From the NCBI RefSeq assembly GCF_947496985.1, contig NZ_CANMEZ010000007.1, positions 1-64,000 on the forward strand: a DNA stretch of 64,000 nucleotides. The letters are read 5' to 3'. Position 1 is the first letter of the stretch; each line of letters starts with the position of its first letter. This DNA comes from an uncultured Kordia sp. GTDB taxonomy: Bacteria; Bacteroidota; Bacteroidia; Flavobacteriales; Flavobacteriaceae. Of the stretch, positions 15,360-36,388 are shown piece after piece. Under the pieces are notes generated by a model. The model ran no database searches, was not told where the DNA came from, and worked only from the letters and a program-made list of their open reading frames with translations. A program made the position numbers and the translations under genes.

Positions 15360-15428
15360 ACGCTTATACATTTATCACTACGCTTACAAAATTCGTGTGT
15401 ACATTTTTGAAATGAAAACCTACTTTTG
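15360..15428 (+). promoter_or_regulatory. ACGCTTAT direct-repeat promoter, site 1
   Basis: ACGCTTAT (15360-15367), 12 nt, ACGCTTAC (15380-15387), then exactly 33 nt to a perfect Bacteroidetes -7 box TACTTTTG (15421-15428). The lipoprotein start at 15468 follows 39 nt later. The same geometry occurs at sites 2-4. Confidence 0.85.
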
Positions 15429-15467
15429 AAGTATTAATAAAATTAATAATTAACAAAGCGTACGATC

Positions 15468-15881
15468 ATGAATTTCAAAAACATTTTAAAACTAACATGC
15501 TGCATTTTTATATTCACACTCACAAGTTGTAGTAGTGATGATGACCAAATAGTAGTAAATGATACATCTTCCATAACGGACAAATGGTATTATGATACGA
15601 ATGAATTTGCCGCTGACATCTATTTTAATAGCAACGGAACCTATCAACAACGAACAGAAGCCATAGGAATGGTATTTGAATCATTTGGAGATTGGTCTTG
15701 GCTAGATGAAGAAAATGGTTTAATGAAAATAGATAATGTAACGGGACAATCACAAGTAGCTTCAGAATTATGGTTTCAGTTTACCAATATTCAAGAAAAC
15801 ACAGTAACCATTGAACAATCGCTAGATGGTAATACATACTTTGCTCCTGTTGATTATCAAGATACAGATCCAGCAAATTAA
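15468..15881 (+). CDS. Lipocalin-like lipoprotein, 137 aa
   Basis: This 137-aa protein has a lipobox (LTSC, Cys21) followed by SSDDD, a common Bacteroidetes signal for surface exposure of lipoproteins. The remainder has short strands such as DKWYYD, IYFNSNGTY, GDWSWLDEENG and ENTVTIEQ. This resembles the small lipocalin-like or DUF5004-type lipoproteins of Bacteroidetes. Its promoter carries the ACGCTTAT direct repeat shared with the pseudopilus and YD-repeat operons. It may therefore work with that system at the cell surface. Confidence 0.7.
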   Translation: MNFKNILKLTCCIFIFTLTSCSSDDDQIVVNDTSSITDKWYYDTNEFAADIYFNSNGTYQQRTEAIGMVFESFGDWSWLDEENGLMKIDNVTGQSQVASELWFQFTNIQENTVTIEQSLDGNTYFAPVDYQDTDPAN

Positions 15882-15913
15882 AGGTAACAATTACAAATAA
15901 AGAATAAGAGTTT

Positions 15914-15948
15914 AAAAAAAGAGAAACACTAAAAGTTTCTCTTTTTTT
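15914..15948 (+). terminator. Terminator after lipocalin-like lipoprotein
   Basis: Stem AAAAAAGAGAAAC (ending 15927), loop ACTAAAA and stem GTTTCTCTTTTTTTT (from 15935). This is a strong rho-independent form about 30 nt after the stop. Confidence 0.85.
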
Positions 15949-15971
15949 TATACAAAAACCTCAAAAAGACA

Positions 15972-16040
15972 ACGCTTATACATTTATTGCTACGCTTATA
16001 AAAAACTATTGGTATTTCTGAGACTTCTATCGTAATATGC
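15972..16040 (+). promoter_or_regulatory. ACGCTTAT direct-repeat promoter, site 2
   Basis: ACGCTTAT (15972-15979), 12 nt, ACGCTTAT (15992-15999), then 33 nt to TAATATGC (16033-16040), a poor match to the -7 consensus at the position where sites 1, 3 and 4 have TACTTTRG or TACTTTTG. It lies 38 nt before the first gene of the pseudopilus locus. The weak -7 box would make this promoter more dependent on an activator. Confidence 0.75.
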
Positions 16041-16078
16041 AATAAAATCACGTTACAAATCCCCATAACATTCAGGTA

Positions 16079-16660
16079 ATGAAATTTATACTCACTGCAT
16101 TTCTCATTCTTATCATAACGCCACAAAAGCGAATTATAAATCATCAAAACTTTGATTACGAATTTTATATTTCTCAGGAAACTGTTAAAAATCCAAAAGA
16201 AAATAAAATGTATTATTGGTATCGTTCAGGAGAAATTCATCAATCGAGTGCTGGTATTGGTGGTGCAGTTTTAGTAGACAGTTATCAGAAATTTTATAAG
16301 TCGAAACAACTTGCCGAAAAAGGAAACTTTAAAAATGGTTTAAAGCATGGCGTTTGGCACGAATGGTTAGAAAGTGGAGCACTTGAAAAAGTAATACATT
16401 GGAAAAAAGGTGTGCTGCATGGAAAATTTATTAGCTATAATAAAAAAGGTGAGAAAATAGAAGAAGGAAATTATCGAAATGGTCAAAAACAAGGCGCTTG
16501 GATCAATTATGATAAAAAAGATACATTATCATATAAATCAGGAAAAATCATTCCTGAAAAGGCAAACGACACGATAAAACGCGAATCGTTCTTCAAACGA
16601 ATATTTAAACGAAAAAAGGAGACGTCTAAAAAAGGTAAAAAAGATGCGAAAGCGGTATAA
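16079..16660 (+). CDS. MORN-like repeat protein heading the pseudopilus operon
   Basis: This 193-aa protein has a short hydrophobic N-terminus (about 1-14) that may be a signal peptide. The middle (about 75-160) has MORN-type repeats: GNFKNGLKHGVWHEW, KKGVLHGKFISY and GNYRNGQKQGAWINY. These are the variant found in YwqK-like proteins. The C-terminus is a run of Lys and Arg. It is the first gene behind regulatory site 2 and overlaps the next gene by 17 nt, so it belongs to the secretion operon. Its role is unknown; it could bind membrane, peptidoglycan or a partner protein. Confidence 0.7.
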   Translation: MKFILTAFLILIITPQKRIINHQNFDYEFYISQETVKNPKENKMYYWYRSGEIHQSSAGIGGAVLVDSYQKFYKSKQLAEKGNFKNGLKHGVWHEWLESGALEKVIHWKKGVLHGKFISYNKKGEKIEEGNYRNGQKQGAWINYDKKDTLSYKSGKIIPEKANDTIKRESFFKRIFKRKKETSKKGKKDAKAV

Positions 16661-17870
16661 AGCATCTTCTCTACTCCATGCAGTTTTTGCATGCCTTCTT
16701 ATTGCATTGGTATGTTTTGGCATGCTATTATTAGTAAGCTACAATACATTATTTCAGCAACAAACTCTAGAAAAAACACAATTACAACTTACCAATAACG
16801 CAGCTATTGAATGGCAGCTTTCCAAAGTAAATTTAGATCAGACAGAAACAACACAACAATCCATTTTTGACGATCATATTAAGACAACAATTCAAACAAT
16901 CAATTGGGGGTTTTACAAAGTAATTCACGCAAAAACATATTACAATCAAGATACAATACATAAATCTGTTTTGGTTGGTAGTATGAAAACGGACAATACA
17001 GCACTATTTGTGACTGACTACGATAAAATTCAAAGTGTAGCTGGAAAAGTTAAAATTATTGGTGATATCGCCATTCCAAAAGCGCGATGGAATGAAAAAA
17101 ATATGCAAGGTGAAAAAACTGAAATTCATATAAACGGAGTGACATCTCCTTCAAAAAATAAACTACCTGCAATCAATAAAAAACAACAACAATTGCCCAA
17201 GGTATTTGATTATGAAGTTACATTAGAAAACCTTGAAGAAAATAGTGTCTATGTACATTCATTTGATAAAGAAACTGCATTACTTAAAGTTCATAATAGT
17301 CACTCACTAAGAGGAAAAAAGCTCAAAGGGAATATCATTATTGAAAAATCAGGAACTTTTCTAATTAATAAACATATGGAATTGGAAGATGTAATTATAA
17401 AAGCTGACGACGTAAAAATTGAAGCTGGTTTTGTGGGAAACATTCAAGTCATCGCAAAAAATACTGTTTTCATTGAAGATGATGTGCAACTCCTATACCC
17501 TTCAAGCATTTTCATTGATAAACCAAACAAACTAGGCACTATTACTATTGGAGAAAATAGTGTTGTCATGGGTAGTATTATTTTATCAGGCATACCCAGA
17601 AAAAAGGCTTCTAAATCATTTATCAAGATTAAAAAAAATGCCATAATCGTTGGAGACTTGTATTGTGAAGGGAATTTAGAAATAACTGGAAAAGTATATG
17701 GAAGTGTCTATACAAATTATCTCACAACAACTATTGAAAAAAACACATATAAAAATATGCTGATGAACGTTGAAATTAATCGTTCAAAACTTCCTAAACA
17801 ATTTGCAGGTATTCCATTAATGAAGACAGGTACAAAAAAATCAACATATGAAGTCATTAAAGAACTTTAA
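16644..17870 (+). CDS. GspK-like pseudopilin with bactofilin-like body
   Basis: This 408-aa protein has a prepilin-like N-terminus: basic MRKRYK, then A-SSLLHAVFACLL as the start of a long hydrophobic helix. The residue five places after the predicted cleavage is His instead of the usual Glu. Lack of Glu5 is the hallmark of GspK, the tip pseudopilin of type II systems. GspK also precedes or accompanies GspI- and GspJ-like proteins, as here. The body (about 250-370) has short repeated strands (IIEKSGTFLIN, GNIQVIAKNTVFIE, GSIILSG, GDLYCEGNLEITGKVYGSVYT) like a bactofilin-type beta-helix, unlike known GspK. It overlaps both neighbours. The GspK role is inferred. Confidence 0.65.
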   Translation: MRKRYKASSLLHAVFACLLIALVCFGMLLLVSYNTLFQQQTLEKTQLQLTNNAAIEWQLSKVNLDQTETTQQSIFDDHIKTTIQTINWGFYKVIHAKTYYNQDTIHKSVLVGSMKTDNTALFVTDYDKIQSVAGKVKIIGDIAIPKARWNEKNMQGEKTEIHINGVTSPSKNKLPAINKKQQQLPKVFDYEVTLENLEENSVYVHSFDKETALLKVHNSHSLRGKKLKGNIIIEKSGTFLINKHMELEDVIIKADDVKIEAGFVGNIQVIAKNTVFIEDDVQLLYPSSIFIDKPNKLGTITIGENSVVMGSIILSGIPRKKASKSFIKIKKNAIIVGDLYCEGNLEITGKVYGSVYTNYLTTTIEKNTYKNMLMNVEINRSKLPKQFAGIPLMKTGTKKSTYEVIKEL

Positions 17871-18213
17871 AAAGTTACGAGCTTCATCACTGCTGGAATC
17901 AGTTATGGCAACCGCCATTATTGCTATTTGCGTAATTATGGCCACCATTGTATTTGTCAACGTTTTCAAAACGGCACATTCAACCGCATTTTTTGAAGGT
18001 TCGCAACAAATTCAAACAATAATAACAGAGTTACAGAAAAAACAAAAAATAACAGAAAAAACATACAGTTATCCTAATTATACCATTGAACAAAAAGTAA
18101 GTGTTTATGATAAATCAACAAACATAAAACATGTACAACTTGAATTGATCACAAATCAAGAACGAAAAACATTTCAGTATTTACTAAAAGTACGCACAGA
18201 TGAATTTGACTAA
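17848..18213 (+). CDS. Minor pseudopilin, GspI-like
   Basis: This 121-aa protein has a type IV prepilin signal. Basic KNFKKLRA is followed by the cleavage point and SSLLESVMATAIIAICVIMA, with Glu at position +5. The first residue is Ser rather than Phe and matches the SSLL of the preceding pseudopilin, which suggests the two pack together. The globular domain is short. Its place between the K-like and J-like genes, with overlaps of 23 and 14 nt, supports a GspI-like or PilV-like tip role. Confidence 0.75.
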   Translation: MKSLKNFKKLRASSLLESVMATAIIAICVIMATIVFVNVFKTAHSTAFFEGSQQIQTIITELQKKQKITEKTYSYPNYTIEQKVSVYDKSTNIKHVQLELITNQERKTFQYLLKVRTDEFD

Positions 18214-18682
18214 GAAATATAAAGCATTTACACTTACAGAAACCATTTTTGGGTTAATTATAACGAGTGCTTTAATTGGTGTTATTTATATGATATTCAC
18301 AACATTTAACAAGCAATTCATCATGTTTCAACAACAGCAATTACAAAGCAATGCATATGTTTTATTTGATGCAACTTTTAAACAAGACTTATACGATGCA
18401 ACTGTAGTTTCTTATCAAAATGAGCAACTCATCATTAAAAATTATAAAGAAGAAATAAAAATATACACAACTCAAAACGATAGTTTAATACGAACCTTTG
18501 ACAAACAATCAACTCCACTACTTACCAATGTGGTTTCGCTTCGCTATACAAAACAAGAAAAGTATCATACGATAGACATGCAAGTGAAATTATATGATGA
18601 AATCATCAACCTAAAGTATCAAAAAAAGGAACATCCTACGAATGTGATCAACGAAACTTTTGCGCATGAAACTAGATATTAA
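18200..18682 (+). CDS. Minor pseudopilin, GspJ-like
   Basis: This 160-aa protein has the prepilin signal KKYKA followed by FTLTETIFGLIITSALIGVIY, with Phe at +1 and Glu at +5. The rest is a small soluble domain of beta strands. It overlaps the previous pseudopilin by 14 nt and GspF by 17 nt. Gene order suggests a GspJ-like tip component. The exact class cannot be set from sequence alone. Confidence 0.75.
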   Translation: MNLTKKYKAFTLTETIFGLIITSALIGVIYMIFTTFNKQFIMFQQQQLQSNAYVLFDATFKQDLYDATVVSYQNEQLIIKNYKEEIKIYTTQNDSLIRTFDKQSTPLLTNVVSLRYTKQEKYHTIDMQVKLYDEIINLKYQKKEHPTNVINETFAHETRY

Positions 18683-19790
18683 AAAACATACCGTTAAGAC
18701 GACAGCCGAGTCAAAAAAAGAAGGGAAATCTAAAGGTTTACAGTTTGATTTTTTTTCAAAATTCTCTAATAAAGATAAAGAAGCTTTCTACAGAGAATTT
18801 GCTGTATTAATAAAATCAGGCGTAGATTTCAATCAATCATTACAACTCTTAGCAGCACAGCAAAAGTCTGAAAAAACGAAAAACATTCTAACAACTATTA
18901 ATAAAGACGTCGTTGCGGGAAGTACTCTATTTGATGCATTGCAAAAACACAAGACATTTTCTCCGTATGAATATTACAGTATTAAAATTGGAGAGGAAAC
19001 CCGAAAACTAGCAGACGTACTAACGGAATTGCAACGGTTTTTTGCGCGTAAAATAAAAATGAAACGTCAAATTGTTTCTGTGATAACATACCCAGCTTTT
19101 GTCTTAGGAATTACATTTATTGTACTCTATTTCATGCTCAATTACATCGTTCCTATGTTTACATCAGTGTTCAAACAATTTGGAAGCGAATTACCTGCAA
19201 TTACAAAATTTGTTATTCGATTATCTGAGAACTTCAATACAATCATGCTTGTCATTTCAGGAATAGTAATTTCTATTATGGTACTACATAAACTGAATAA
19301 GAAAAACGATCGTTATCGTAATATATTAGGTGAAATAATATTGAAAATTCCATTTTTAGGACCATTCTTAAAAAAGATTTATGTTACACAATTTTGTCAA
19401 TCATTAAGTCTATTACTAAGCGCAAAAACGCCTTTAATCACTTCCTTAGATTTAACCAAAGAAATGATCACATTTTACCCAATGCAGAAGGCAATTCAGC
19501 AGGTAAAATTTGACATTCTAAAAGGACATACACTTTCCAAAAGTTTAGAAAAACACACCATTTTTCCTAAAAAACTTGTTTCATTAGTTAGTATTGGCGA
19601 ACAAACCAATGCACTTGACAGTATGTTTAGCAAATTGAACGATCAATACAATGACGAAATAGAACATACCACAAAAATGGTTGGAACCATACTAGAACCG
19701 CTAATCATTATTGTTATTGGCGCATTGGTTGGGTTTATCTTAATTTCCATGTACACACCTATGTTTGACTTGAGTAAAGTAATTGGTTAA
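18666..19790 (+). CDS. gspF: Type II secretion inner-membrane platform protein GspF
   Basis: This 374-aa protein is read from the ATG at 18666; a TTG two codons upstream is also open. It has the T2SS F repeat twice. The first is FYREFAVLIKSGVDFNQSLQLL with SPYEYYSIKIGEE, about residues 35-160. The second is FCQSLSLLLSAKTPLITSLDL with KLVSLVSIGEQTNALDSMF, about 240-345. Membrane helices lie near 140-165, 185-205 and 345-365. GspF anchors the ATPase and drives pseudopilus assembly. The length is usual apart from a basic N-terminal extension. It ends the first half of the locus. Confidence 0.92.
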   Translation: MKLDIKKHTVKTTAESKKEGKSKGLQFDFFSKFSNKDKEAFYREFAVLIKSGVDFNQSLQLLAAQQKSEKTKNILTTINKDVVAGSTLFDALQKHKTFSPYEYYSIKIGEETRKLADVLTELQRFFARKIKMKRQIVSVITYPAFVLGITFIVLYFMLNYIVPMFTSVFKQFGSELPAITKFVIRLSENFNTIMLVISGIVISIMVLHKLNKKNDRYRNILGEIILKIPFLGPFLKKIYVTQFCQSLSLLLSAKTPLITSLDLTKEMITFYPMQKAIQQVKFDILKGHTLSKSLEKHTIFPKKLVSLVSIGEQTNALDSMFSKLNDQYNDEIEHTTKMVGTILEPLIIIVIGALVGFILISMYTPMFDLSKVIG

Positions 19791-19851
19791 ACTAACAGGA
19801 ATTCATCATCTATTGTTTTGATTATTAACCTCATTTTCTTTACGCATGCAA

Positions 19852-19875
19852 CATTTTGACTGCGTTCAATATGAC
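19852..19875. repeat. REP-like element, copy 2 (inverted)
   Basis: On the minus strand it reads GTCATATTGAACG, then CAGTCAAAATG, which matches the form at 324-348 with several changes. It is most likely a decayed Bacteroidetes intergenic repeat. Confidence 0.4.
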
Positions 19876-19995
19876 AAGTACAAAACAAAAGAGATACTAC
19901 TAATAAAGAAAAAAACGTTTCTCAAAGTATTGGATGTGAGTAATTTGAAATGTAATATTTTTCTTCAAAATTGTTGTTTTTATTAAAAAAACGCA

Positions 19996-20064
19996 ACGCT
20001 TATCAACTATTCCTTACGCTTATTAATTCCACTATTCTAAAACTACATTTTTTATATACTTTAG
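19996..20064 (+). promoter_or_regulatory. ACGCTTAT direct-repeat promoter, site 3
   Basis: ACGCTTAT (19996-20003), 12 nt, ACGCTTAT (20016-20023), then exactly 33 nt to TACTTTAG (20057-20064), preceded by ATA as at site 4. The major pseudopilin start at 20092 follows 27 nt later. Confidence 0.85.
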
Positions 20065-20091
20065 TTTCAGAATAATAAAAATCGAATACAA

Positions 20092-20520
20092 ATGAAGAAG
20101 AAAAAACCCATCCCAAAAAAGCAGTCTTTATGGCTAAAAGGATATTCTTTGACAGAAATTCTTATTGTATTGTGCATAATTGGAATCTTGATTTATTTGG
20201 TATTACCAAATCAAACACAAGCCGTTGTACAAGCACGTGCAATTGAAGCAAAATCAACACTAAATTCATTATACTCGTATCAACGAAACTACTTCTTTAC
20301 ACATGCTAAATACGCTGATAATTTTGAAGATATTGGCTTTGAAAGAGAAATTACAATTGATAAAGGTGGACAAGCCGTATATCGCATTGAAATTATAGAA
20401 GCTAGCATTAACAGTTTCAAAGCAAGAGCACAATCCATTCAAGATTTTGATGGAGACGGAAATTACAATACTTGGGAAATAGATCACAAACGAAATCTAA
20501 AAGAAGTCGTCAAAGATTGA
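20092..20520 (+). CDS. Major pseudopilin, GspG-like
   Basis: This 142-aa prepilin has a basic 17-residue leader (KKKKPIPKKQSLWLKG) with cleavage after Gly. YSLTEILIVLCIIGILIYL follows, with Glu at +5. The soluble domain has one long helix and the acidic loop DFDGDGNYNTWEID (about 118-131), which resembles the calcium-binding loop of GspG and TfpA-like pilins. It is the first gene of the second half of the locus, with its own regulated promoter, as expected for the most abundant subunit. Confidence 0.85.
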   Translation: MKKKKPIPKKQSLWLKGYSLTEILIVLCIIGILIYLVLPNQTQAVVQARAIEAKSTLNSLYSYQRNYFFTHAKYADNFEDIGFEREITIDKGGQAVYRIEIIEASINSFKARAQSIQDFDGDGNYNTWEIDHKRNLKEVVKD

Positions 20521-20524
20521 TCTT

Positions 20525-21013
20525 TTGAAAACTATTATAACCATCGTATTACTGAGTGTATTTGTCATTATCTTAATTCAAGATTTCAAATACAGAGCCA
20601 TTCATGCAGTTACCATTATTGGTATCGGTATTATCGCCATTATTCTAAACTACCTCGAACCACAACTCACATTTTTTGACATGCTAAAAAACATTGGTTT
20701 TTTAGTCATTACAAGTAGTGCATTTATGATTTATCTAACAATAAAAAATAAAACCTTTCAAAATCCTATTGATCAATCAATTGGATTAGGCGACTTGCTA
20801 TTTTTAATAGTGATTACACCACTATTTCAAGTACAGCAATACATCTTGTTTTTTATCATTGGATTAATGATTTCTGTGGTGGTTTTTATACTCTCAAAAT
20901 CAATTTTAAAAGAACAAACAATTCCATTAGCGGGTTATTTGTCCTTCATACTAATCATTTGTTTTGGTTTAAAAATGTTGAACATCGTAAATCCTTTTTA
21001 CATTGAATTCTAA
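20525..21013 (+). CDS. Prepilin peptidase, A24 family, minimal form
   Basis: This 162-aa integral membrane aspartyl protease has about six helices. The first catalytic Asp is D20 in LIQDFKYRAIH and the second is D90 in the GxGD motif GLGDLLF. The N-terminal methylation domain and Cys tetrad of PilD/GspO are absent, so it resembles the short TadV/CpaA type. It would cleave the four pseudopilins encoded in this locus. The start is a TTG 5 nt after the pseudopilin stop; no ATG lies near. It overlaps gspE by 11 nt. Confidence 0.88.
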   Translation: MKTIITIVLLSVFVIILIQDFKYRAIHAVTIIGIGIIAIILNYLEPQLTFFDMLKNIGFLVITSSAFMIYLTIKNKTFQNPIDQSIGLGDLLFLIVITPLFQVQQYILFFIIGLMISVVVFILSKSILKEQTIPLAGYLSFILIICFGLKMLNIVNPFYIEF

Positions 21014-22424
21014 CAATCAACATATCATCATATCTATAACACAGCAGCAAATTGTAAGTGCTGAACTGGCAAATCACTATCGAATTATTCCATTTGATGA
21101 AAATGCTAACAGTATTTCTTTTTACACAGACAAAAACGAAGCAGACAGTGAAAAACTCATTCAAGAATTACAATTATTATTGGATAAAAAAATCACGATT
21201 GCTTTTGCGTCTACAGAAGTTATTCAAAAAGCATTAGCTACGTATTATAGAACTAGCGATACTGAAGCAACAACTTCAAATGAATTACAGCAGCTAAGCA
21301 CTGATTTTTTAGATGAATTATTGCATGAAGCGAAAGGAATTAGGGCAAGTGATATACACGTAGAAATATTTGAAGAAGAAGCACGTGTTCGGTTTCGAAT
21401 TGATGGTTTATTGATTGAAAAATATAAAATTCAAACAGAAAACTACCTGGAACTCATCAACAAAATAAAAATTCGTTCCAACTTAGATATTACAGAAAAA
21501 CGCTTGCCGCAAGATGGTCGCATTACTATTGAAACTTTTGACATTCGTGTTTCTATTTTGCCAACTCATTATGGAGAAAAAGTAGTCATGCGTTTGTTAG
21601 GACGTGATGCTTCTCACCTAAACTTAAACGCTTTAGGTATGAACTCGCAAGAACAAGAACGTTATCGTACTGCCGTAAAAAAAACCAATGGCATTGTGTT
21701 AATTAGTGGCCCTACAGGTTCTGGAAAAACAACTACATTATATGCAACATTGAAACATCTAAATCATTCCAAAACAAATATTGTTACGGTAGAAGATCCA
21801 ATAGAATATACACTAAAAGGGATCAATCAAGTACAATTGAAAGAAGATATCGGTTTAACATTTACAGCTGCATTGCGTTCGTTTTTACGCCAAGACCCTG
21901 ATGTGATTATGTTAGGAGAAATTAGAGATGCACAAACAGCGCAGATGGCTATTAGAGCTTCACTCACAGGGCATTTGGTGCTTTCTACTATCCACACAAA
22001 CTCAGCTTTAGGAACCATTTCACGATTAATTGATATGGGCGTGCCTGCATTTTTAATTGCGGAAACACTCAATATTTCTATTGCACAACGCTTAATTCGT
22101 AAACTGTGTGAACATTGTAAAACCGAAACAATACTCAATGTAGAAGATTTACCAAAATCATTACGAACAAACAATACAATAACACATCAACATACTGCAA
22201 AAGGTTGCAATCATTGCTACTACACAGGATATAAAGACAGAACTGCAATCTATGAAATGATTGCCATTACGGAAGATATTGCCGAAATCATAAAACAAGA
22301 ACGCATACAAGAAGCCAAAAAACTCATTAACAAAGAAGAAAGTTTGGCATACAAAGCATTACAACTATTCAAAGACGGAATTACCTCTTTGGAGGAAGTA
22401 TATCCAATATTATTAAACTCCTAA
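21003..22424 (+). CDS. gspE: Type II secretion ATPase GspE
   Basis: This 473-aa secretion ATPase powers pseudopilus assembly from the cytosol. It has Walker A GPTGSGKT (236-243), the Asp box VEDPIEY (263-269), Walker B VIMLGE (301-306), the His box TGHLVLSTIHTN (322-333), and a zinc-binding Cys tetrad C369/C372/C402/C405 typical of GspE and PilB. The N1E domain is shortened (about 90 residues before the core). The start is TTG at 21003, inside the previous gene. No PilT-like retraction ATPase is present, which favours a type II secretion system over a twitching pilus. Confidence 0.93.
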   Translation: MNSNNQHIIISITQQQIVSAELANHYRIIPFDENANSISFYTDKNEADSEKLIQELQLLLDKKITIAFASTEVIQKALATYYRTSDTEATTSNELQQLSTDFLDELLHEAKGIRASDIHVEIFEEEARVRFRIDGLLIEKYKIQTENYLELINKIKIRSNLDITEKRLPQDGRITIETFDIRVSILPTHYGEKVVMRLLGRDASHLNLNALGMNSQEQERYRTAVKKTNGIVLISGPTGSGKTTTLYATLKHLNHSKTNIVTVEDPIEYTLKGINQVQLKEDIGLTFTAALRSFLRQDPDVIMLGEIRDAQTAQMAIRASLTGHLVLSTIHTNSALGTISRLIDMGVPAFLIAETLNISIAQRLIRKLCEHCKTETILNVEDLPKSLRTNNTITHQHTAKGCNHCYYTGYKDRTAIYEMIAITEDIAEIIKQERIQEAKKLINKEESLAYKALQLFKDGITSLEEVYPILLNS

Positions 22425-22427
22425 AAC

Positions 22428-24341
22428 ATGTACAAGCACTATATATTTATACTTCTATTTCTATTTTCTGGATGGGCATTTGCGCAACAGAATACAGCAT
22501 ATCGTGAAAAGTTAGAAACATTATCGACTGAAGTCAAAGCATATAACAAAACGATGCAAGTAGAAATTTCGGGCATTACATTATATGATTTTATTTCTGC
22601 AATCGCCGATGAACACAAACTTAGTATTGATGTTGACACCGAATTAGACCAACTAATTTCTAGTAATTTCTATGATGTTCCAGTGAAAGATGTTTTGCTT
22701 TTTTTGGTAGGAAAGCATGATTTGGACATGGATGTAAAGGGCAAAATACTAGTTATCCGTAAGAAAGAAATTGTTCCTGAAATTCCAAAACCAATTCCGC
22801 CTAAAAAAATAGACGTTCGTTACAATAAAGAAAATGATTTCCTTTCTGTAAAATTGAAAAACGATTCCATTTCGAGAGTTACACGAGCAATTATTGATGC
22901 TTCTCAGAAAAATATCATTCTAGCGCCAGCTATAAAAAAACAAACTGTTTCATCCTACATTCTCAACCGTCCATTTGATCAAGTATTGGAAATGATGGCA
23001 AAGTCAAACGGCTTAATGATTACAAAAGATGAAAATGATTTTTACTATATAGATAAGAGTGATATTGTTATAAAAGACAATCCAACCACAGCAAAATCGA
23101 ATCGTAAAAGAAGTGTTCAAAAGAAAAAAGGTACCAATACAAACAATGGTGAATATACACTTGCAGTTGACAAAAAAGGCTTTCTATCTATCAACGCTTT
23201 TGAAGCAGATGTACTAAGCATTTTAGTAGAAGCTGCCGAAAAATTGAACATCAATTATTTCATGTATGACAAACCTGAAAAATTAACGACCACATTACTA
23301 GCAACAGGAATTACTTATGAAGAATTATTAGGACATGTACTAAAGGGAAAAGAATACACATATAAAAAAGATGATGAAGTATTCCTTATTGGGAAACACG
23401 ACACGGACGGTATTAGAAGAACCACTTTAATTCAAATGGAAAACAGAACTATTGAATCTGTAAAAGCAACATTTCCAAAAGCATTGGTTCAAAAAATGGA
23501 CATTGTAGAATTTATAGAACTCAACGGTTTTGTAGTAACAGGTTCAGAAATTCAAGTAAGAGCCATGCGCGAATATTTGAAAGAAATTGACAAAGTTGTT
23601 CCTAATGTTGAAATTGAAATTATGATTGTTCAATATCAAAAAGGCTATGAAATACAAACAGGTTTACAAGCCGGATTAGATGATAACAAACGTACAACTT
23701 CAGGTGTATTATTCCCTACGGGCGATGTACAAGTGAATGCAAATTCGGTAAATGGACTCATTGATGCCTTTAACGGACTTGGTATTGTGAATCTTGGGAA
23801 AGTTACAGAACGGTTTTATCTGAGTTTAAAAGCACTTGAAAACAATTCATACATCAAAGTAGAATCGACGCCTAAATTAGTCACCCTAAATGGTCATGAA
23901 GCTACAACTTCTATTGGAGAAACAAGCTACTATTTTGAACAACGAAATGAACTGATACAAACTGGTGTAAACAATAATGTATTACAATCAGGACAATGGA
24001 AATCTACGGAGGCAAATTTGAGTGTTCGCATCAAGCCATTTGTGTCTAAAGACGAACATGTAACGCTTGAAGTTTCGGTAGAACAAAGCTCCTTTTTAGG
24101 AAGAGCTGGTGAAAATGCTCCTCCTGGAAAAGCTACTCGAAAATTTGAATCTATGATTCGTGTAAAGAATAATGAGATGATTTTACTTGGAGGATTGGAT
24201 GAATTAGAGAATGAAAATTCAGGTACAGGAACGCCTTTCTTTTCTAGAATTCCCATAATCAAATGGTTTTTTAGTAGTAGAAAAAAGAAGAAAGAAAAAT
24301 CGAAACTTCACATATTAATCAAACCAACAGTTACGTATTAA
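22428..24341 (+). CDS. gspD: Secretin GspD
   Basis: This 637-aa protein has a signal peptide (1-19). STN/N0- and N1-like domains follow (about 35-110 and 125-340). The C-terminal secretin domain (about 395-637) is visible in VEIEIMIVQYQKGYEIQTGLQAG, YIKVESTPKLVTLNG, TTSIGETSYYFEQ, LSVRIKPFVS, MILLGGL and IPIIKWFF. It would form the outer-membrane channel. No separate pilotin is evident, but two lipoproteins lie in the same operon (26041 and 28021). Spacing to gspE is 3 nt. Confidence 0.92.
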   Translation: MYKHYIFILLFLFSGWAFAQQNTAYREKLETLSTEVKAYNKTMQVEISGITLYDFISAIADEHKLSIDVDTELDQLISSNFYDVPVKDVLLFLVGKHDLDMDVKGKILVIRKKEIVPEIPKPIPPKKIDVRYNKENDFLSVKLKNDSISRVTRAIIDASQKNIILAPAIKKQTVSSYILNRPFDQVLEMMAKSNGLMITKDENDFYYIDKSDIVIKDNPTTAKSNRKRSVQKKKGTNTNNGEYTLAVDKKGFLSINAFEADVLSILVEAAEKLNINYFMYDKPEKLTTTLLATGITYEELLGHVLKGKEYTYKKDDEVFLIGKHDTDGIRRTTLIQMENRTIESVKATFPKALVQKMDIVEFIELNGFVVTGSEIQVRAMREYLKEIDKVVPNVEIEIMIVQYQKGYEIQTGLQAGLDDNKRTTSGVLFPTGDVQVNANSVNGLIDAFNGLGIVNLGKVTERFYLSLKALENNSYIKVESTPKLVTLNGHEATTSIGETSYYFEQRNELIQTGVNNNVLQSGQWKSTEANLSVRIKPFVSKDEHVTLEVSVEQSSFLGRAGENAPPGKATRKFESMIRVKNNEMILLGGLDELENENSGTGTPFFSRIPIIKWFFSSRKKKKEKSKLHILIKPTVTY

Positions 24342-24342
24342 A

Positions 24343-25533
24343 ATGTTTGAAAAACTAGCACATATCATTCCATTAAAAAATACTTTTCAAGTAGTAGGAA
24401 TTCATTTTTTGAATGAAGATGAAGTACAATTTTGCGTGCTGACTATTCATAAAAAGCAAAATGAGTTTTCAGTTGGAAAACGATTTGAAACCAATCAGTT
24501 TGTTGAAGTTTTCAAAGAAATTGAAACCAAACATCCTGTATTTCTACATTTCTCAGGAGTTGGCATTTTGAATAAAAAATTGGAACGTGCTGTAAATTAC
24601 AGACAAAAGTTGCTTTTTAAATCAAATCCAGATGATTTCTACTTTTATGAAGTACATCAAGAAAAGGCAATTTTTGTATCGATGTGTCGAAAAAAAATCA
24701 TCGATAGGTATTTGACACAATTGGAAGCTAAAAAATATCATGTATTAGACATTGCTATTGGTCCTTTTGTAAATTATGTGTTGCGTTCATTCATATCGAA
24801 CCAAAATATAACATCTAATCTTTCAAATATTACATTATCGCAACATGCCATTATTGATTTTGAAATATTAGATACTGTTTCTAAAAGTACTAAATATCAA
24901 ATTGAAGATTTACATTTTTCACACAAAGAAATTGCGCTTTTTGCAATGATCATACAATATCATATTCAAGAAGAAGTCATACAATTTGAAACGTTTTTTT
25001 TACAAGAAAACAAAACAGCCTTCAGCTATTACAAAGCCACAAAAACTACGCTAATTTCGGGTATTGTCATACTATTATTTGGCATCATTACTGGTCATTT
25101 TTTACTGAATACATATCGCACAGAAACTTCCGAAAAACAAGCTATTGTAGCCGGAGTAAAAGATATACAAGAAAAACTAGTAGTGCTCAAGCAACAAAAA
25201 CAAGATAAAGAGGAAATTATTGCAACTTCAGGTTTATTCAACCCGAAGTTTTTGACCCATTATTTTTATGAAATTGGAAATTCAGTTCCTCAAAATATCA
25301 AGTTATCAAATATGAATATTACACCTGTGACTAAGAAAATGCGAGCTGATAAAGAAGTGCGTTTTTTCAAAAAACAAATTCATGTAGCAGGACATACCAT
25401 TAACGATGATCATTTTCAACAATGGGTTGCAAAATTGAACACAAAATCGTGGGTAAAAAAGACCGAAATAGAAGCGTACACACAATTGAGACGATCGAAA
25501 CAAAAATCATTTTTAATACATATCTATTTCTAA
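24343..25533 (+). CDS. GspL-like (PilM-PilN fused) assembly protein
   Basis: This is a 396-aa protein. Residues 1-225 form a cytosolic domain weakly like the actin-like PilM/GspL part. A single membrane helix follows (about 233-252). The periplasmic part has a coiled coil (about 258-295) and a PilN-like domain (PKFLTHYFYEIGNSVPQNIKLSNMNI and a later VAGHTINDDHFQQWVAKL). This layout is that of GspL, which couples the ATPase to the periplasmic platform. It starts 1 nt after gspD and overlaps the next start by 1 nt (TAATG). Confidence 0.72.
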   Translation: MFEKLAHIIPLKNTFQVVGIHFLNEDEVQFCVLTIHKKQNEFSVGKRFETNQFVEVFKEIETKHPVFLHFSGVGILNKKLERAVNYRQKLLFKSNPDDFYFYEVHQEKAIFVSMCRKKIIDRYLTQLEAKKYHVLDIAIGPFVNYVLRSFISNQNITSNLSNITLSQHAIIDFEILDTVSKSTKYQIEDLHFSHKEIALFAMIIQYHIQEEVIQFETFFLQENKTAFSYYKATKTTLISGIVILLFGIITGHFLLNTYRTETSEKQAIVAGVKDIQEKLVVLKQQKQDKEEIIATSGLFNPKFLTHYFYEIGNSVPQNIKLSNMNITPVTKKMRADKEVRFFKKQIHVAGHTINDDHFQQWVAKLNTKSWVKKTEIEAYTQLRRSKQKSFLIHIYF

Positions 25534-26051
25534 TGATGCTTCAACTTTCACATAAACGCCGTTTTTACTTAACATTGATTGCAATGATTTTACTGATTTT
25601 TGCTTTATACAAAAAGACATACAGTCCAATTTTTGAATTGAAAAATGAGCTTCAAACTTCTGAAAATTTAATGACAAATTCGGAAGCTTCTTTTCGAGAA
25701 GTTCAAGAATTACAACAGGAGTTAAATGGTTTAGATAAGATTATTGGGGATTCACAAAATCATGCTTTAGTTCAACAAAAAATATTGCAATTCATTACAA
25801 ATAATTCATTGAACGTTAGTGTTATTTCTATGGAAGACACCCATGTTTTTGGAGAAAAGATTTTTACCGTTTTCACGAATAAAATCGTGCTAAAAGGAAC
25901 TTATGAAAACTTACTAAAACTTATGTATACTATGGAAAAAGAATTTGCAGCGTCAAAAATCGCAAGTGCAAAATTTATTTCAAAAAAAGATTACAACACA
26001 CATAAAACAAATTTATTACTAGAACTATATTTTCAAAACTATGGGAAATAA
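25533..26051 (+). CDS. GspM/PilO-like platform protein
   Basis: This 172-aa protein is read from the ATG at 25533, which overlaps the previous stop as TAATG. An in-frame extension to 25422 would overlap the GspL-like gene by more than 100 nt and reads as polar sequence, so I reject it. A membrane helix (about 13-28) is followed by a coiled coil (about 30-72) and a small ferredoxin-like periplasmic domain. This is the plan of PilO/GspM, the partner of GspL/PilN. It overlaps the next gene by 11 nt. Confidence 0.7.
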   Translation: MMLQLSHKRRFYLTLIAMILLIFALYKKTYSPIFELKNELQTSENLMTNSEASFREVQELQQELNGLDKIIGDSQNHALVQQKILQFITNNSLNVSVISMEDTHVFGEKIFTVFTNKIVLKGTYENLLKLMYTMEKEFAASKIASAKFISKKDYNTHKTNLLLELYFQNYGK

Positions 26052-27003
26052 CATTAAACTTTTAAGCCTATTAAGCCTTCTCCTTTTTATGTCTTGCGAC
26101 GATATTTTAGAGGAAAATATTTCTGACGATTTAATTACGCCAATTACACCAACTGCGGAAAGTGTAATTACGAACAACTTAATTAATTTTTCGTGGAATG
26201 CTGCAGATGGTGCGGACGATTATCGATTGCAAATATTGGATAACAACCAAAACAATTTGATTGTACTAGATTCAGTAGTTTCATCTACATCATTTCAACA
26301 CCCATTAGATCCTGGTAATTATCAATGGCGTATACGAGGAGAAAATTTCGCTTATGAAACAGCGTACTCCTTCCCTATTTCGTTTAGCGTAGTTGCCTCT
26401 TCCGATTTAACAAATCAGAGTGTGATTTTGAATACACCAACAGACAATTTATATACTAACTCTACCAATATATTATTTACTTGGAACGATTTACAATTTG
26501 CAGATTCATATACGTTTGAATTGGTTAAAAACCTCAACGGGCAGACAACTGTTTCTCAACAAACAGGAATTACAGCTACAAATTACAGTGTAAATGCAAG
26601 TGTTTTTGATGTTGACGCAGCATACATCTGGAAAGTAAAAGCTATCAATACAACAACCGAAACTACGTTTGCAACTCGTTCTATTCTTTTAGACCGTGAA
26701 GCTCCAAATCAACCTTCATTAGTTTCTCCAACAGATGGAGAAACGATTACAACCATAGACATTGATTTTAATTGGACACTTGGACAGGATAGTGGAAACA
26801 TACAATCGACAGTAGAGAGTGTTTTAGAGATTGCACAAGATGCTAATTTCAATACTATTGTAGAAACAATTACGGTTAGTAATGGAACTTCTCAGCAAGT
26901 TTCTATTGAAAATATTGGCACTTATTATTGGCGTGTTCGTGCAAAAGATGCGGCACAAAATGTGAGTTCTTATAGTATTCAAAGATCATTTACAACAGAA
27001 TAA
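26041..27003 (+). CDS. Fibronectin III-like lipoprotein of the pseudopilus operon
   Basis: This 320-aa lipoprotein has the lipobox LLLFMSC (Cys19), followed by DD. Three fibronectin type III-like repeats follow (about 35-120, 125-215, 220-318). Each has the FSWNAADGADDYRLQI / FTWNDLQFADSYTFEL / FNWTLGQD pattern and a late YxWRVR or YIWKVK strand. Position inside the secretion operon suggests a periplasmic or surface accessory, perhaps a substrate-binding or secretin-stabilising part. Such a gene is not part of standard type II loci. Confidence 0.75.
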   Translation: MGNNIKLLSLLSLLLFMSCDDILEENISDDLITPITPTAESVITNNLINFSWNAADGADDYRLQILDNNQNNLIVLDSVVSSTSFQHPLDPGNYQWRIRGENFAYETAYSFPISFSVVASSDLTNQSVILNTPTDNLYTNSTNILFTWNDLQFADSYTFELVKNLNGQTTVSQQTGITATNYSVNASVFDVDAAYIWKVKAINTTTETTFATRSILLDREAPNQPSLVSPTDGETITTIDIDFNWTLGQDSGNIQSTVESVLEIAQDANFNTIVETITVSNGTSQQVSIENIGTYYWRVRAKDAAQNVSSYSIQRSFTTE

Positions 27004-27014
27004 TTAAGTACAGT

Positions 27015-27503
27015 TTGAAAACAAAAAAATATATAAACATTGGATTAACTCTATTGACCATTTTCATTTGGGGAACTATTGGCTATACGTATTTCTATCA
27101 ACAGGAAGCACCAAAAAATGTAGCATATTCACCTGTAATGACAGCCAATATAGATTTTTCTATTCGGAAAGATACTTTTGATTTAATAGCTGTTAAAAAT
27201 CCTTTTTCAAATACCATGCGAACTCCTAAAAAAAGTTCTCAGACTAAGATTAAAAAAAGTTCAAAAAAACAACAAAAATCACGCATTCCAATAGCCGTAA
27301 AATGGCCTACTATTTCCTATCACGGATATGTGGTTCAGGAGGGAAATTCAAAAAAATTAGGCATTCTAAAAGTCAATGGAAAAATTACACGAAAGAAAAT
27401 ACAAGAAGTCATTCTAAACGAATTTAAAATCAAGAATATATACGAAGATTCTATTCAATTAACATATAAAAACACCATTAAAACTTTTAAAAAACAAAAA
27501 TAA
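27015..27503 (+). CDS. GspC/PilP-like periplasmic connector
   Basis: This 162-aa protein is read from TTG at 27015. An N-terminal membrane helix (about 8-28) precedes a Lys-rich linker (about 70-98). A C-terminal HR-like domain (about 100-160) has the pattern ISYHGYVVQEGNSKKLGILKVNG, KIQEVILNEFKIKNI, DSIQLTYKN. GspC and PilP use this domain to dock the inner-membrane platform on the secretin. No PDZ domain is present, so it is a short form. Confidence 0.7.
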   Translation: MKTKKYINIGLTLLTIFIWGTIGYTYFYQQEAPKNVAYSPVMTANIDFSIRKDTFDLIAVKNPFSNTMRTPKKSSQTKIKKSSKKQQKSRIPIAVKWPTISYHGYVVQEGNSKKLGILKVNGKITRKKIQEVILNEFKIKNIYEDSIQLTYKNTIKTFKKQK

Positions 27504-27511
27504 ACAAGCAA

Positions 27512-28009
27512 ATGAAAACTTTAAAATTTCTTCCCCTAGTCAATATATGTGTGCTAATTGCCGCAATTATTTTTATGACGATAAAACTCAATGACAATCC
27601 AAAGAAATATGCGTATGTAGATAATATTTCATTATTCAACAAATTCAATATGTCAAAAGATTTGCACGCTATGGGTTTGCCACAACTAAATGCACAAAAA
27701 AAGAAAGTAGATAGTCTTTATCAGTTAGCTCAACAACAAAATGATCCGAAGTTGATTAAAGAGTTACAACAGCGTGTGTATATTCAAAATAATCACCTTC
27801 AAAAAATGGATACTGAACTAAAACAAGAAGTAAATAGAAAAGCTTGGGAACGGTTAAATGGATATTTAGAAGAATTTGGAAAGCAACAAAATGTAGATCT
27901 CATTTTTGGTATTCAAGGTACTGGAAACGTAATGTATGCAGATAAAGCTTTTGATTTGACACAAGAAGCTATTGAATTTGCCAATTCAAAATATGAAGGT
28001 AACAAGTAA
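27512..28009 (+). CDS. OmpH/Skp-like periplasmic chaperone
   Basis: This 165-aa protein has an N-terminal hydrophobic anchor or signal (about 8-24). A short strand YAYVDNISLFNKF follows, then a long charged coiled coil (about 50-120). The end returns to strands (VDLIFGIQGTGNVMYADKAFDLT), the pattern of Skp/OmpH trimers that hold unfolded outer-membrane or secreted proteins. An OmpH-like gene inside a pseudopilus operon is unusual. It could hold the large secreted substrates encoded downstream. Confidence 0.75.
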   Translation: MKTLKFLPLVNICVLIAAIIFMTIKLNDNPKKYAYVDNISLFNKFNMSKDLHAMGLPQLNAQKKKVDSLYQLAQQQNDPKLIKELQQRVYIQNNHLQKMDTELKQEVNRKAWERLNGYLEEFGKQQNVDLIFGIQGTGNVMYADKAFDLTQEAIEFANSKYEGNK

Positions 28010-28020
28010 AAAAAGAACAG

Positions 28021-28608
28021 ATGAAAAAAATAATTTTACTTCTTAGCATGACACTATTTTGTGTTTTATCATGTACAAAAAACAAACAGGAAGCAGTTAT
28101 TACAGAAAATTACAAATTTTTCAATTTAGCCGTTGATGGCTGGAAGTCGAAAAAAATTAATCAATATGTAAATTCGATTAATTACACGGCTACGGAAGTT
28201 CCGTTGCATTATTACATCTTAAAAGACAATCAAAACATTGAACCAAAAGCAGTCGATTCTATTTTCAAATTACATGAAAAAGAACGTGTTGTCGAAATTG
28301 AATTTCATCATGATGAAGAACAAGATTTATTACAACAAGAGTTTACCAATTTGTCATATGATAAAGCCGTAAAATATATGGCTTTTAAAATTCAAAAGGA
28401 TTTTAAAGTAGTTACAAGTTCAAATGATACCATTGTATGTTCAGGTGTTTTATTTGAACGAAATTTTAAAGTTGCTCCTTTTAAAAGAGCATTACTATAC
28501 TTTGGAGATGTAAATCCAAACGAAGAAATACAATTGATATACGATGATCAATTATTTGGAAATGGTTTAATGAAATTTAACTTTAAAGCAAAACCATTAA
28601 AACTGTAA
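28021..28608 (+). CDS. Hypothetical lipoprotein ending the pseudopilus operon
   Basis: This 195-aa protein has the lipobox CVLSC (Cys18). The family is not recognised. The mature part has aromatic strands (HYYILKDNQNIEP, VVEIEFHHDEEQDLL, MAFKIQKDFKV, ALLYFGDVNPNEEIQLIYDDQ). It starts 11 nt after the Skp-like gene. As the last gene of the secretion operon it could be a pilotin-like or assembly lipoprotein, which is only a guess. Confidence 0.65.
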   Translation: MKKIILLLSMTLFCVLSCTKNKQEAVITENYKFFNLAVDGWKSKKINQYVNSINYTATEVPLHYYILKDNQNIEPKAVDSIFKLHEKERVVEIEFHHDEEQDLLQQEFTNLSYDKAVKYMAFKIQKDFKVVTSSNDTIVCSGVLFERNFKVAPFKRALLYFGDVNPNEEIQLIYDDQLFGNGLMKFNFKAKPLKL

Positions 28609-28638
28609 GTAAATACAGTGATATTGTCTATTCTTTTA

Positions 28639-28707
28639 ACGCTTATACAATAATTACTACGCTTATGAAATATCTAACGATTGATACAACGTAAATATAT
28701 ACTTTAG
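28639..28707 (+). promoter_or_regulatory. ACGCTTAT direct-repeat promoter, site 4
   Basis: ACGCTTAT (28639-28646), 12 nt, ACGCTTAT (28659-28666), then exactly 33 nt to TACTTTAG (28700-28707). It drives the giant YD-repeat operon. The start codon is 178 nt further, leaving a long 5' leader. Confidence 0.85.
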
Positions 28708-34978: not shown

Positions 34979-35000
34979 AACAGTTATTAAAAAACATATT

Positions 35001-35636
35001 ATGAAAATATATAATACATACAAACTTCTAATTACAATAGTGTTTTTATTAGTTCTGACAAGTACTTGGGGACAAACTACCTCTGGTGACTTTCAATCTG
35101 GAACTGCAAATGGTACTTGCTCCTCTTTTTATCCATTACCTGGTGAAAAATACATCGTTAGTGGCTGGGTTAAAGAGAGTAACAATCAAAATAAAAAAAC
35201 ATACACAAATGGCGTGTTAGAAATTAACTTCTACGACGGAAGTAATTTGAATCCAGCATTACCTACAGTTACAATGTATCCAAGTGGAAAAATCATTGAA
35301 GGTTGGCAAAGAATCATAGGAATTGTATCAATTCCGAAGCCAGAAGCTAATACCAACGAAGAAGCACTCAAAGTAATTGGAATAAGTTTATCATGCCTTA
35401 ATGCTGGCACTGACTGCTATTTTGATGATATCCGAATCTTCCCGTTCAACGGAAGTATGAAAAGTTTTGTATACGATAAAGACACACAACGTTTGATGGC
35501 AGAATTAGATGAAAACAACTACGCTACTTATTATGAATATGATCAAGAAGGCGGGTTGGTAAGAGTCAAAAAAGAAACAGAAAAAGGTGTGTATACTATT
35601 CAAGAAACACGATCAAAAAGTAAAAAACAACAATAG
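35001..35636 (+). CDS. Secreted carbohydrate-binding-like protein with YD tail
   Basis: This 211-aa protein has its own signal peptide (about 1-24). A jelly-roll-like domain (about 45-150, PGEKYIVSGWVKES to CYFDDIRIFPF) is followed by SMKSFVYDKDTQRLMAELDENNYATYYEYDQEGGLVRVKKE, two YD-type units. This block looks like the missing end of the 2030-aa protein, which stops 22 nt upstream after an unrelated PKD-like domain. It may be a split-off fragment that gained a signal peptide, or a separate cap for the shell. I favour a split. Confidence 0.7.
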   Translation: MKIYNTYKLLITIVFLLVLTSTWGQTTSGDFQSGTANGTCSSFYPLPGEKYIVSGWVKESNNQNKKTYTNGVLEINFYDGSNLNPALPTVTMYPSGKIIEGWQRIIGIVSIPKPEANTNEEALKVIGISLSCLNAGTDCYFDDIRIFPFNGSMKSFVYDKDTQRLMAELDENNYATYYEYDQEGGLVRVKKETEKGVYTIQETRSKSKKQQ

Positions 35637-35638
35637 TT

Positions 35639-36388
35639 ATGAAACGTATAAAAAATATATCAATCTACAGAAAATTAGTACTAGCAATACTCTTTTTAGT
35701 ATGCTTTCAGACCTATAGTTTTGCACAAGAAAGAACAGTCGATGACATCTTAAAGGAGACACAAAATGCAATGGAACAGAACCAAAATATGCGTTTTGAT
35801 ATGAATTATAAATGGTTTGGCACATATACAGCTAAAAAACCATCTATTTCATACTTAGGCAACCTTATAAAGTCTAAAGAAATAATTTATTCAAAAATCA
35901 ATAACACCTTTTTCATTACAGATCCAACATCAAAAACATCTATTAAATGTAATGAAGCAGAAAAAGCATTGATTATTCAAAGTAATATAACTATAAACAA
36001 TGATCAGTCACCTGTAGCATTATTAAGCACCTTTATTAAGCTATTCAAAATAAAAAAAGTTAAGGATAATGGAAGTCAATGGATATGTACATTAACTACA
36101 GATGTTATTACACAACTTCCTTATGGAAAAGTAGAAATCTACATTAATAAAGAAACTGCTTTAGTTGAAAAAGAAGTACTCTATTTCTTAACAAAAGCTC
36201 CTTATAAAAATGAAGAAGGTCAAGAAAAAATAGACAATCCAAGAATGGAAATTACGCTTTCCAACTACAAAACAAGTTTATCCAAACAGGAAAAAAATAT
36301 CGCTAAAATAGATTCTTACATACTTAGAAATGGAAAAAGAATAACTCCAACTACTGCATATAAAGAATTTAAAATAAGTCAATATTAA
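35639..36388 (+). CDS. LolA-like periplasmic protein
   Basis: This 249-aa protein has a signal peptide (about 10-29). The rest (about 33-249) resembles the half-open barrel of LolA/LppX-like proteins: an early helix DDILKETQNAMEQNQNMRFDMNY, then a series of strands with PYGKVEIYINKETALVEKEVLYF. There is no lipobox. It lies 2 nt after the YD fragment and 83 nt before the giant YD gene, so it is co-transcribed. It could carry a lipid or hydrophobic ligand or assist assembly at the outer membrane. The assignment is by pattern only. Confidence 0.5.
   Translation: MKRIKNISIYRKLVLAILFLVCFQTYSFAQERTVDDILKETQNAMEQNQNMRFDMNYKWFGTYTAKKPSISYLGNLIKSKEIIYSKINNTFFITDPTSKTSIKCNEAEKALIIQSNITINNDQSPVALLSTFIKLFKIKKVKDNGSQWICTLTTDVITQLPYGKVEIYINKETALVEKEVLYFLTKAPYKNEEGQEKIDNPRMEITLSNYKTSLSKQEKNIAKIDSYILRNGKRITPTTAYKEFKISQY

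Follow-up and report, generated by a model that had tools for sequence, protein, structure and literature searches.

The subject of this work is a paired direct repeat, ACGCTTAY-N12-ACGCTTAY, found four times in a 64,000-nt stretch of DNA from an uncultured Kordia sp. (Flavobacteriaceae; assembly GCF_947496985.1). This stretch, which we call the window, is the start of contig 7 (NZ_CANMEZ010000007.1) of a 5.48-Mb genome. Each of the four copies is a perfect match on the forward strand and is followed by a candidate -7 box. They are listed below with their scores in a sequence model that is introduced further on; genomes are denoted by G numbers, with G000 being the genome of the window, and loci by L numbers.

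15360..15387, + strand: direct-repeat site 1, ACGCTTAT-N12-ACGCTTAC (43.4 bits)
15421..15428, + strand: -7 box TACTTTTG of site 1, from the sequence
15972..15999, + strand: direct-repeat site 2 (42.2 bits), kept in L093 and L122
16033..16040, + strand: divergent -7 box TAATATGC of site 2, with identical letters in L093 and L122
19996..20023, + strand: direct-repeat site 3 (34.9 bits)
20057..20064, + strand: -7 box TACTTTAG of site 3, from the sequence
28639..28666, + strand: direct-repeat site 4 (45.8 bits)
28700..28707, + strand: -7 box TACTTTAG of site 4, from the sequence

At all four sites the half-sites start 20 bp apart and 33 nt separate the second repeat from the -7 box, so that the positions, the period and the distance given in a preliminary description of this DNA are exact in the window. 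All four pairs are intergenic, and an open reading frame (ORF) on the same strand starts 96-247 nt past the first base of the pair. The single word ACGCTTAY, with up to one mismatch, is found 67 times in the window against 68.4 expected; this absence of enrichment makes the pair, rather than the word, the unit of the signal. The box of site 2 is unusual, and since it recurs with identical letters and position before the orthologous operon in two other species, it is conserved.

Occurrence and anatomy of the element

The whole-genome scan that the preliminary description had called for has been run for the repeat pair, using the reversed pattern as the control. This genome holds 14 perfect pairs against 0 for the control, 19 against 1 when one mismatch is allowed, and 32 against 7 when two are allowed. 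The perfect pairs, together with the complete absence of the pair from 100 dinucleotide shuffles of the window, bear out the claim that the geometry is not a product of chance. Every one of the 11 Kordia genomes carries 11-21 sites with at most one mismatch (164 in total, against 4 for the control). In a sample of 299 genomes of the family, two of them from Kordia itself, a single perfect match is present in each of 2 of the 297 non-Kordia genomes, and one other has a control match. Within this sample the exact form of the repeat pair is restricted to Kordia, a genus of marine bacteria.

The sites lie between genes. All 23 in this genome are outside ORFs of more than 100 amino acids (aa). Among 108 sites of the genus, three overlap such an ORF (one being an opposite-strand ORF over a repeat array, the other two lying within genes); at 98 of the sites a start on the same strand follows within 900 nt. 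Many copies inside genes, which the preliminary description had named as grounds for giving up its proposal, are thus not seen: two of the 108, both with one mismatch, fall in a plausible same-strand gene.

The anatomy of the element is taken from a set of 106 sites, of which 23 are from this genome (4 with two mismatches) and 83 from other genomes. This set is what remains of 109 rows after L125 and the second L134 site (within genes, one mismatch) and L137 (a near-duplicate) are removed; it holds 102 of the 164 genus sites with at most one mismatch (105 fetched, 3 dropped). G004 and G010 are outside it, G001 enters minus five one-mismatch sites, and G007, G008 and G009 enter in part. The extended half-site in this set reads ACGCTTAYnnAnW, twice, 20 bp apart, with A at +10 in 93 first and 105 second halves and T or A at +12 in 103 and 106 respectively. 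In 71 first halves an A precedes the 8-nt core and extends it to 9 nt, and the nnAnW extension brings it to about 13. The Bacteroidota -7 box, TAnnTT, begins 33 nt after the second repeat at 58 sites, 32 nt after it at 22 and 34 nt after it at 5, a sum of 85; the -33 region gives a weak signal. The "exactly 33 nt" of the preliminary description therefore holds for the four window sites and not for the genus, where the distance is 32, 33 or 34 nt or TAnnTT is not found there. Measured by the -7 box of Flavobacterium psychrophilum, which spans -12 to -5 (PMC9723704), the repeat pair would lie at about -73 to -46.

A sequence model trained on the 106 sites finds 24 places in this genome with E below 1e-6, and the next place has E 4.5e-4. 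The scan, in which 150 of 10198 first-look candidates were scored, is partly circular, as 23 of the 24 places are in the training set. The 24th has a decayed second half and lies upstream of a gene for a protein of 635 aa; in G002 and G006, the relatives of this gene have one-mismatch sites. At 19.1 bits C10:31565 scores lower, but it too is probably a real site, because genes in G005 and G006 that look similar by eye carry the site. With 23 intergenic sites and a decayed one, orthologues that have sites, and a near-fixed promoter distance, the regulon proposed in the preliminary description stands at the level of sequence, and at that level the promoter element is real. The DNA-uptake role of its targets and its likeness to LytTR binding sites go beyond that proposal. 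Its further statement that the element had not yet been described is consistent with the open-access literature, where we find no description of it.

Genes behind the element

The genes downstream of the four window sites, and two small ORFs that follow them, are as follows; co-transcription within each operon is inferred from spacing.

15468..15881, + strand: 137-aa lipoprotein-like protein, by eye, without a Pfam match
16079..19790, + strand: pilus operon 1
16079, + strand: pilus operon 1 gene with a MORN match below threshold
16644, + strand: pilus operon 1 gene with a bactofilin match below threshold
17848 and 18200, + strand: two small prepilin-like proteins of pilus operon 1, by eye, without Pfam support
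18660-19790, + strand: T2SSF platform protein of pilus operon 1 (Pfam T2SSF, 3e-49)
20092..28608, + strand: pilus operon 2, with further genes to 28608
20092, + strand: pilin of pilus operon 2, ComP_DUS match below threshold
20525, + strand: prepilin peptidase-like protein of pilus operon 2, just under the cut-off
21003, + strand: T2SSE ATPase of pilus operon 2 (Pfam, 9e-125)
22428, + strand: secretin of pilus operon 2 (Pfam, 7e-35)
28886..48243, + strand: giant-protein operon, encoding proteins of 2030, 211, 249 and 3923 aa
First gene of the giant-protein operon, + strand: 2030 aa, RHS-like by eye, without a Pfam match
36472-48243, + strand: 3923-aa protein with an RHS repeat and a PT-HINT pretoxin domain near the C-terminus (Pfam)
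48240..48641, + strand: 133-aa ORF overlapping the end of the 3923-aa gene, without a Pfam match
49916..50269, + strand: LytTR-only protein of 117 aa, a rejected regulator candidate

Judged solely by its position, the 133-aa product could possibly be an immunity protein. The giant-protein operon adjoins a contractile injection system locus (51670-63336; Pvc16_N, sheath, spike and gp25 by Pfam), which is preceded by the LytTR-only gene and a LuxR-like gene.

Among the targets of all 24 sites, those of DNA uptake and recombination are comEC, comM/yifB, radC, recA and both pilus operons of the window. The established role of ComEC is DNA transport, and we take YifB to be the ComM family. Pfam supports the assignments (Competence/ComEC 2e-59, Mg_chelatase of the ComM type 4e-93, RadC 1e-40, RecA 3e-141). 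The other targets are the giant-protein operon, three lipoprotein-like genes, an HU-HIG protein, two DUF6261 genes, an outer-membrane protein, a propeller protein with a secretion tail, an 89-aa bacteriocin-like peptide (so labelled by eye, with no Pfam or NCBIfam match), three very large proteins without an assigned function, four other genes and one non-coding RNA. Searches of Pfam, NCBIfam and PHROGs return no match for the targets of 1345, 1157 and 920 aa.

Conservation is counted over the six best-covered genomes (G000, G001, G002, G003, G005, G006; G001 again minus its five one-mismatch sites). The site is upstream of comEC, of recA and of the non-coding RNA in 6 of 6, of comM in 5 of 6, and of radC in 3 of 6 as well as in three partly covered genomes. 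It also precedes the gene for a 143-aa secreted protein in 6 of 6; in this genome that gene stands before an LpxK-like gene (by eye). An RHS-type gene stands behind a site, directly or past a LytTR-only gene, in 8 of 11 genomes (G000, G001, G004, G005, G006, G008, G009, G010); the RHS identity is by Pfam for the 3923-aa window protein and one G006 gene and by eye for the remainder, and Pfam gives no match for another G006 RHS-type gene. The pilus and giant-protein operons adjoin in G000, G001 and G005.

RNA features

Several of these promoters are followed by conserved or repetitive segments. The non-coding RNA (L068 10877-10957, - strand; also L083, L094, L116, L130, L144) aligns over 81-83 nt in six Kordia genomes directly past the -7 box, and has two predicted hairpins, of which the second is terminator-like; one base pair is changed on both sides. 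A second conserved region, with predicted long stems, forms the recA leader (L073, L091, L099, L111, L128, L135) and may be either a separate RNA or a recA attenuator. Between promoter and gene, the DUF6261 targets have 42-bp tandem repeat arrays with palindromic arms (L065, L097, L156). At three measured loci the arrays have 4.4-6.1 copies with 84-94% matches, and the unit sequence differs by locus. Arrays that are similar by eye occur at L085, L090, L124, L139, L145 and L071. Compared with shuffled sequence, predicted folding is much stronger at 6 of 9 array loci, weak at L090 and L071, and not stronger at L065. The window, three small-RNA copies, three of the recA leaders and two of the repeat arrays all lack an Rfam match at gathering level.

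A probable competence regulon

We consider it quite likely, from the genes that it precedes, that the element drives a natural-transformation (competence) regulon in Kordia. The main reason is that one element lies upstream of comEC, comM, radC and both pilus operons, and of recA past a long leader, and that this is the same combination of DNA-uptake and recombination genes as in known competence regulons. A transposon screen in Riemerella anatipestifer, which belongs to the same family, reports ComEC, DprA, ComF and RecA as essential for transformation, and YifB mutants transform less (PMC8459023). The CRP-S competence sites of Haemophilus lie at rec-2/comEC, comM, radC, pilA and others (PMC5809987), and the pneumococcal late set includes radC, recA, dprA and a prepilin peptidase (PMC6560143).

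Several observations weigh against this reading. There is no site at dprA, and in 19.5 kb around that gene the sole site is that of recA. The start of recA is 537-573 nt past its site across genomes (556 nt here), and because it lies so far off and behind a conserved structured leader, the promoter may serve the leader RNA. ComEC scores 145 bits against an NCBIfam equivalog cut-off of 190, but clears those of Pfam and of the N-terminal ComEC model. In this genome the sites of comM and radC have two mismatches, a level at which 7 control matches accompany 32 pairs; we accept them because orthologues have better sites and because of their model scores (34.6 and 38.3 bits). Eighteen of the 24 targets have no known link to transformation. 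We find no report on transformation of Kordia in the open-access literature; the two hits returned for it both concern lactic acid bacteria, judged by title and abstract.

The wiring also appears to differ outside the genus. Of 60 genomes sampled from the family, 57 have comEC, counting this one, and the 250 bp upstream of the gene at 29 loci of other genera (of 56 matches) hold no comparable repeat. The test requires an 8-of-8 direct repeat with a period of 19-23 and covers 30 loci including this genome, whose own pair is 7 of 8; it finds 0 such repeats, against 0.44 expected by shuffling. By eye, comEC is close behind another gene at most of the 29. At comEC at least, control through the direct repeat looks specific to Kordia. 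For the pilus ATPase, 32 of 80 fetched loci were examined upstream of the gene, and the ACGCTTA pair is present only in K. periserrulae and K. aestuariivivens; the pilus locus of a metagenome-assembled genome, Kordia sp. NORP58, has no pair, and its ATPase is only 61% identical. Two Bizionia loci, one Aquimarina locus and one Flavobacteriaceae locus have unrelated repeats there.

Beside dprA itself (L348 4027-6874) we note a convergent LytTR response regulator and a histidine kinase-like gene, without a regulon site.

A probable LytTR-family regulator

By analogy with characterized sites, the element is probably the binding site of a LytTR-family regulator. LytTR regulators are described as binding two repeats of 9-11 nt, 11-13 nt apart, with no common consensus (PMC4847170); the Kordia element, with its 8-nt core (9 to about 13 extended) and N12, agrees with this spacing. 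Streptococcus mutans regulates competence and bacteriocins through the LytTR proteins HdrR and BrsR, and the repeat of the brsRM promoter is ACCACTTAT-12-ACCGCTTAT (PMC6193735). When the Kordia repeat is read as AACGCTTAT, 8 of 9 letters equal those of the BrsR repeat ACCGCTTAT, with a period that is one base shorter. LytTR repeats show a strong bias to 10 bp before -35 (PMC6193735, Table 3); adding a 17-bp spacer gives, by our own sum, 33 nt to -10, and 85 of the 106 sites have TAnnTT at 32-34 nt. A Bacteroides thetaiotaomicron operon that resembles a LytTR regulatory system (LRS) has, likewise by our own sum, 34 nt from repeat to TATCTTTG (PMC6193735). That the regulon is "activator-dependent", as the preliminary description had it, is suggested by the location of the pair immediately before the promoter and by the example of other LytTR systems.

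Other findings count against a LytTR regulator. At 21 of the 106 sites, window site 2 among them, there is no TAnnTT at 32-34 nt. The period of 20 and the core of 8 nt differ from the 21 and 9 usual for LytTR sites, and the five S. mutans promoters have, by our own sum, 24-33 nt to the printed -10 or extended -10, not all 33. This genome has 51 LytTR domains; a scan of 49 distinct LytTR proteins finds no site in the 500 bp upstream of any of their genes. Four candidates for a common master regulator are each missing from several regulon-bearing genomes, so that none of them is this master. The 117-aa window protein has no site upstream, and a search of the 10 other genomes at E 1e-20 gives a single relative, 34% identical, in one of them. 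A LytTR-only family of 133 aa is found in 7 of 11 genomes at E 1e-12, and in this genome solely through the 35%-identical window protein. The response regulator beside dprA has close orthologues (59-77%) only in G004, G006, G008 and G009. Of the full-length LytTR proteins of this genome, the one nearest to the LytTR-only family is matched at E 1e-55 only in G000, G008 and G009.

In other Kordia genomes, the site does lie upstream of LytTR-only genes. Of 24 matches to this family three are set aside (the window protein, the full-length response regulator L183, and L184 at 38%). Thirteen of the 21 counted have a site upstream and 14 are followed by an RHS-type gene (by eye), one of which is confirmed by Pfam. 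These cassettes of a LytTR-only gene and a giant RHS-type gene occur several per genome (G002, G004, G006, G008, G009, G010; L161-L182 without L167). Because a site often precedes the LytTR-only gene and an RHS-type gene follows it, the proteins would fit a role as autoregulated accessory regulators. The membrane-inhibitor gene of an LRS is not seen after the LytTR-only genes: 14 of the 21 have the RHS-type gene in that place, and for the remaining 7, one of them at a contig end, inspection by eye without topology prediction reveals no obvious candidate.

Comparison with known systems

The closest resemblance is to the LRS of S. mutans (HdrR, BrsR), with which the Kordia element shares direct repeats of nearly identical sequence (ACCGCTTAT there, AACGCTTAT here), a 12-nt spacer and a similar promoter distance. 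Control of competence together with antibacterial products would also be common to both, and LytTR-only proteins with the site at their own promoters occur there and, in 13 of 21 cases, in other Kordia genomes. Kordia differs in belonging to another phylum with another promoter type, in its period of 20 rather than 21, and in having the site directly at comEC, comM, radC and the pilus genes. Its LytTR-only family, found in 7 of 11 genomes, has an RHS-type gene behind it in 14 of 21 cases (by eye), with no membrane inhibitor noted.

The Haemophilus CRP-S/Sxy system likewise places a single promoter element at comEC (rec-2), comM, radC and pilus genes. That element is a CRP site with the cofactor Sxy, in contrast to the direct repeat of Kordia, and comF, ssb and (suboptimally) dprA have sites there, whereas Kordia dprA has none. 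In the pneumococcal cascade of ComE and ComX, ComE is a LytTR response regulator. The late genes, with radC, recA, dprA and the prepilin peptidase among them, form the regulon of the sigma factor ComX, unlike in Kordia, where the direct repeat is at the effector genes themselves. In the LRS-like operons of Bacteroides, a TATCTTTG -7 box lies 34 nt beyond the direct repeats; these differ in being 11-bp repeats of another sequence at one operon each, and the available text does not mention competence genes. Direct-repeat LytTR control of competence is of a known kind, and what would be new here is the phylum, the promoter type and the target set.

Alternative explanations

Some of the same facts can be read in other ways. 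The competence regulon could be kept and the binding protein exchanged for a non-LytTR one, e.g., an AraC-type activator; such proteins also bind long, directly repeated half-sites with a period near 21 bp, immediately before the promoter. That 0 of the 49 scanned LytTR genes of this genome have a site upstream, and that the cognate regulator was not found, would agree with such a protein. The spacing, the sequence (8 of 9 letters between AACGCTTAT and ACCGCTTAT) and the promoter distance nevertheless match LytTR sites, and the element precedes 13 of 21 LytTR-only genes in related genomes, so that we regard this exchange as unlikely.

A different proposal gives up competence in favor of a general surface, stress or DNA-repair response, in which a type II-like system encoded at the pilus locus would secrete the giant RHS proteins, and recA, radC and comM would serve repair. 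About 8 of the 24 targets are lipoprotein-like, outer-membrane or secreted (partly by eye), the pilus and giant-protein operons are neighbours in three genomes, and dprA has no site, all of which would suit it. It accounts poorly for the presence of the site at comM in 5 of 6 genomes and in all 6 at comEC, a gene that the Riemerella screen found essential, and for the fact that comEC, comM, radC and pilus genes together are the set marked by the Haemophilus competence site; we hold it to be quite improbable. Chance insertion of a mobile or repetitive element upstream of genes is hardly credible as the origin of the sites. Several do precede paralogous genes (DUF6261, RHS cassettes), but the 106 sites share little beyond the repeats, the AnW extension, the -7 box and A+T richness, and orthologous genes keep the site in several species despite divergent spacers.

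Proposed mechanism

A LytTR-family activator that turns on a Kordia competence regulon is, with both parts taken jointly, the likely explanation; the joint probability is higher than the product of the two parts because the LytTR and competence readings share evidence. From the observed site, geometry, conservation and target genes we infer the following sequence of events. Two regulator subunits would bind the two half-sites which, being 20 bp apart, present the same face of the helix. The bound regulator, just upstream of a Bacteroidota promoter with a -7 box and little -33 signal, would recruit RNA polymerase. The uptake arm would be switched on in this way: the pilus-like DNA-uptake machine, the ComEC channel, the ComM ATPase, RadC and, via the long leader, RecA. 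RHS/pretoxin proteins, the small bacteriocin-like peptide (by eye), surface lipoproteins and the small RNA would be co-induced, and killing or contact would then coincide with DNA capture in one cell state.

Significance

How Bacteroidota switch on DNA uptake is a matter on which we find no description in the open-access literature, and the words regulon, promoter and LytTR are absent from the main text of the Riemerella transposon-screen paper (PMC8459023). The chances are slightly better than even that the present element is the first transcriptional control element of natural transformation to be recognised in this phylum, a LytTR switch that places DNA uptake, recombination, RHS/pretoxin proteins, a bacteriocin-like peptide and a new small RNA in one programme. 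Such a switch would be convergent with the way in which streptococci couple competence to killing, and would use a nearly identical DNA word. A sharp, genus-wide element marks the genes involved, several of them without a known function, and offers a bait for finding the regulator. It predicts that toxin-like RHS proteins would be deployed together with DNA uptake, and it suggests that a nearly identical LytTR DNA word may serve competence in two phyla.

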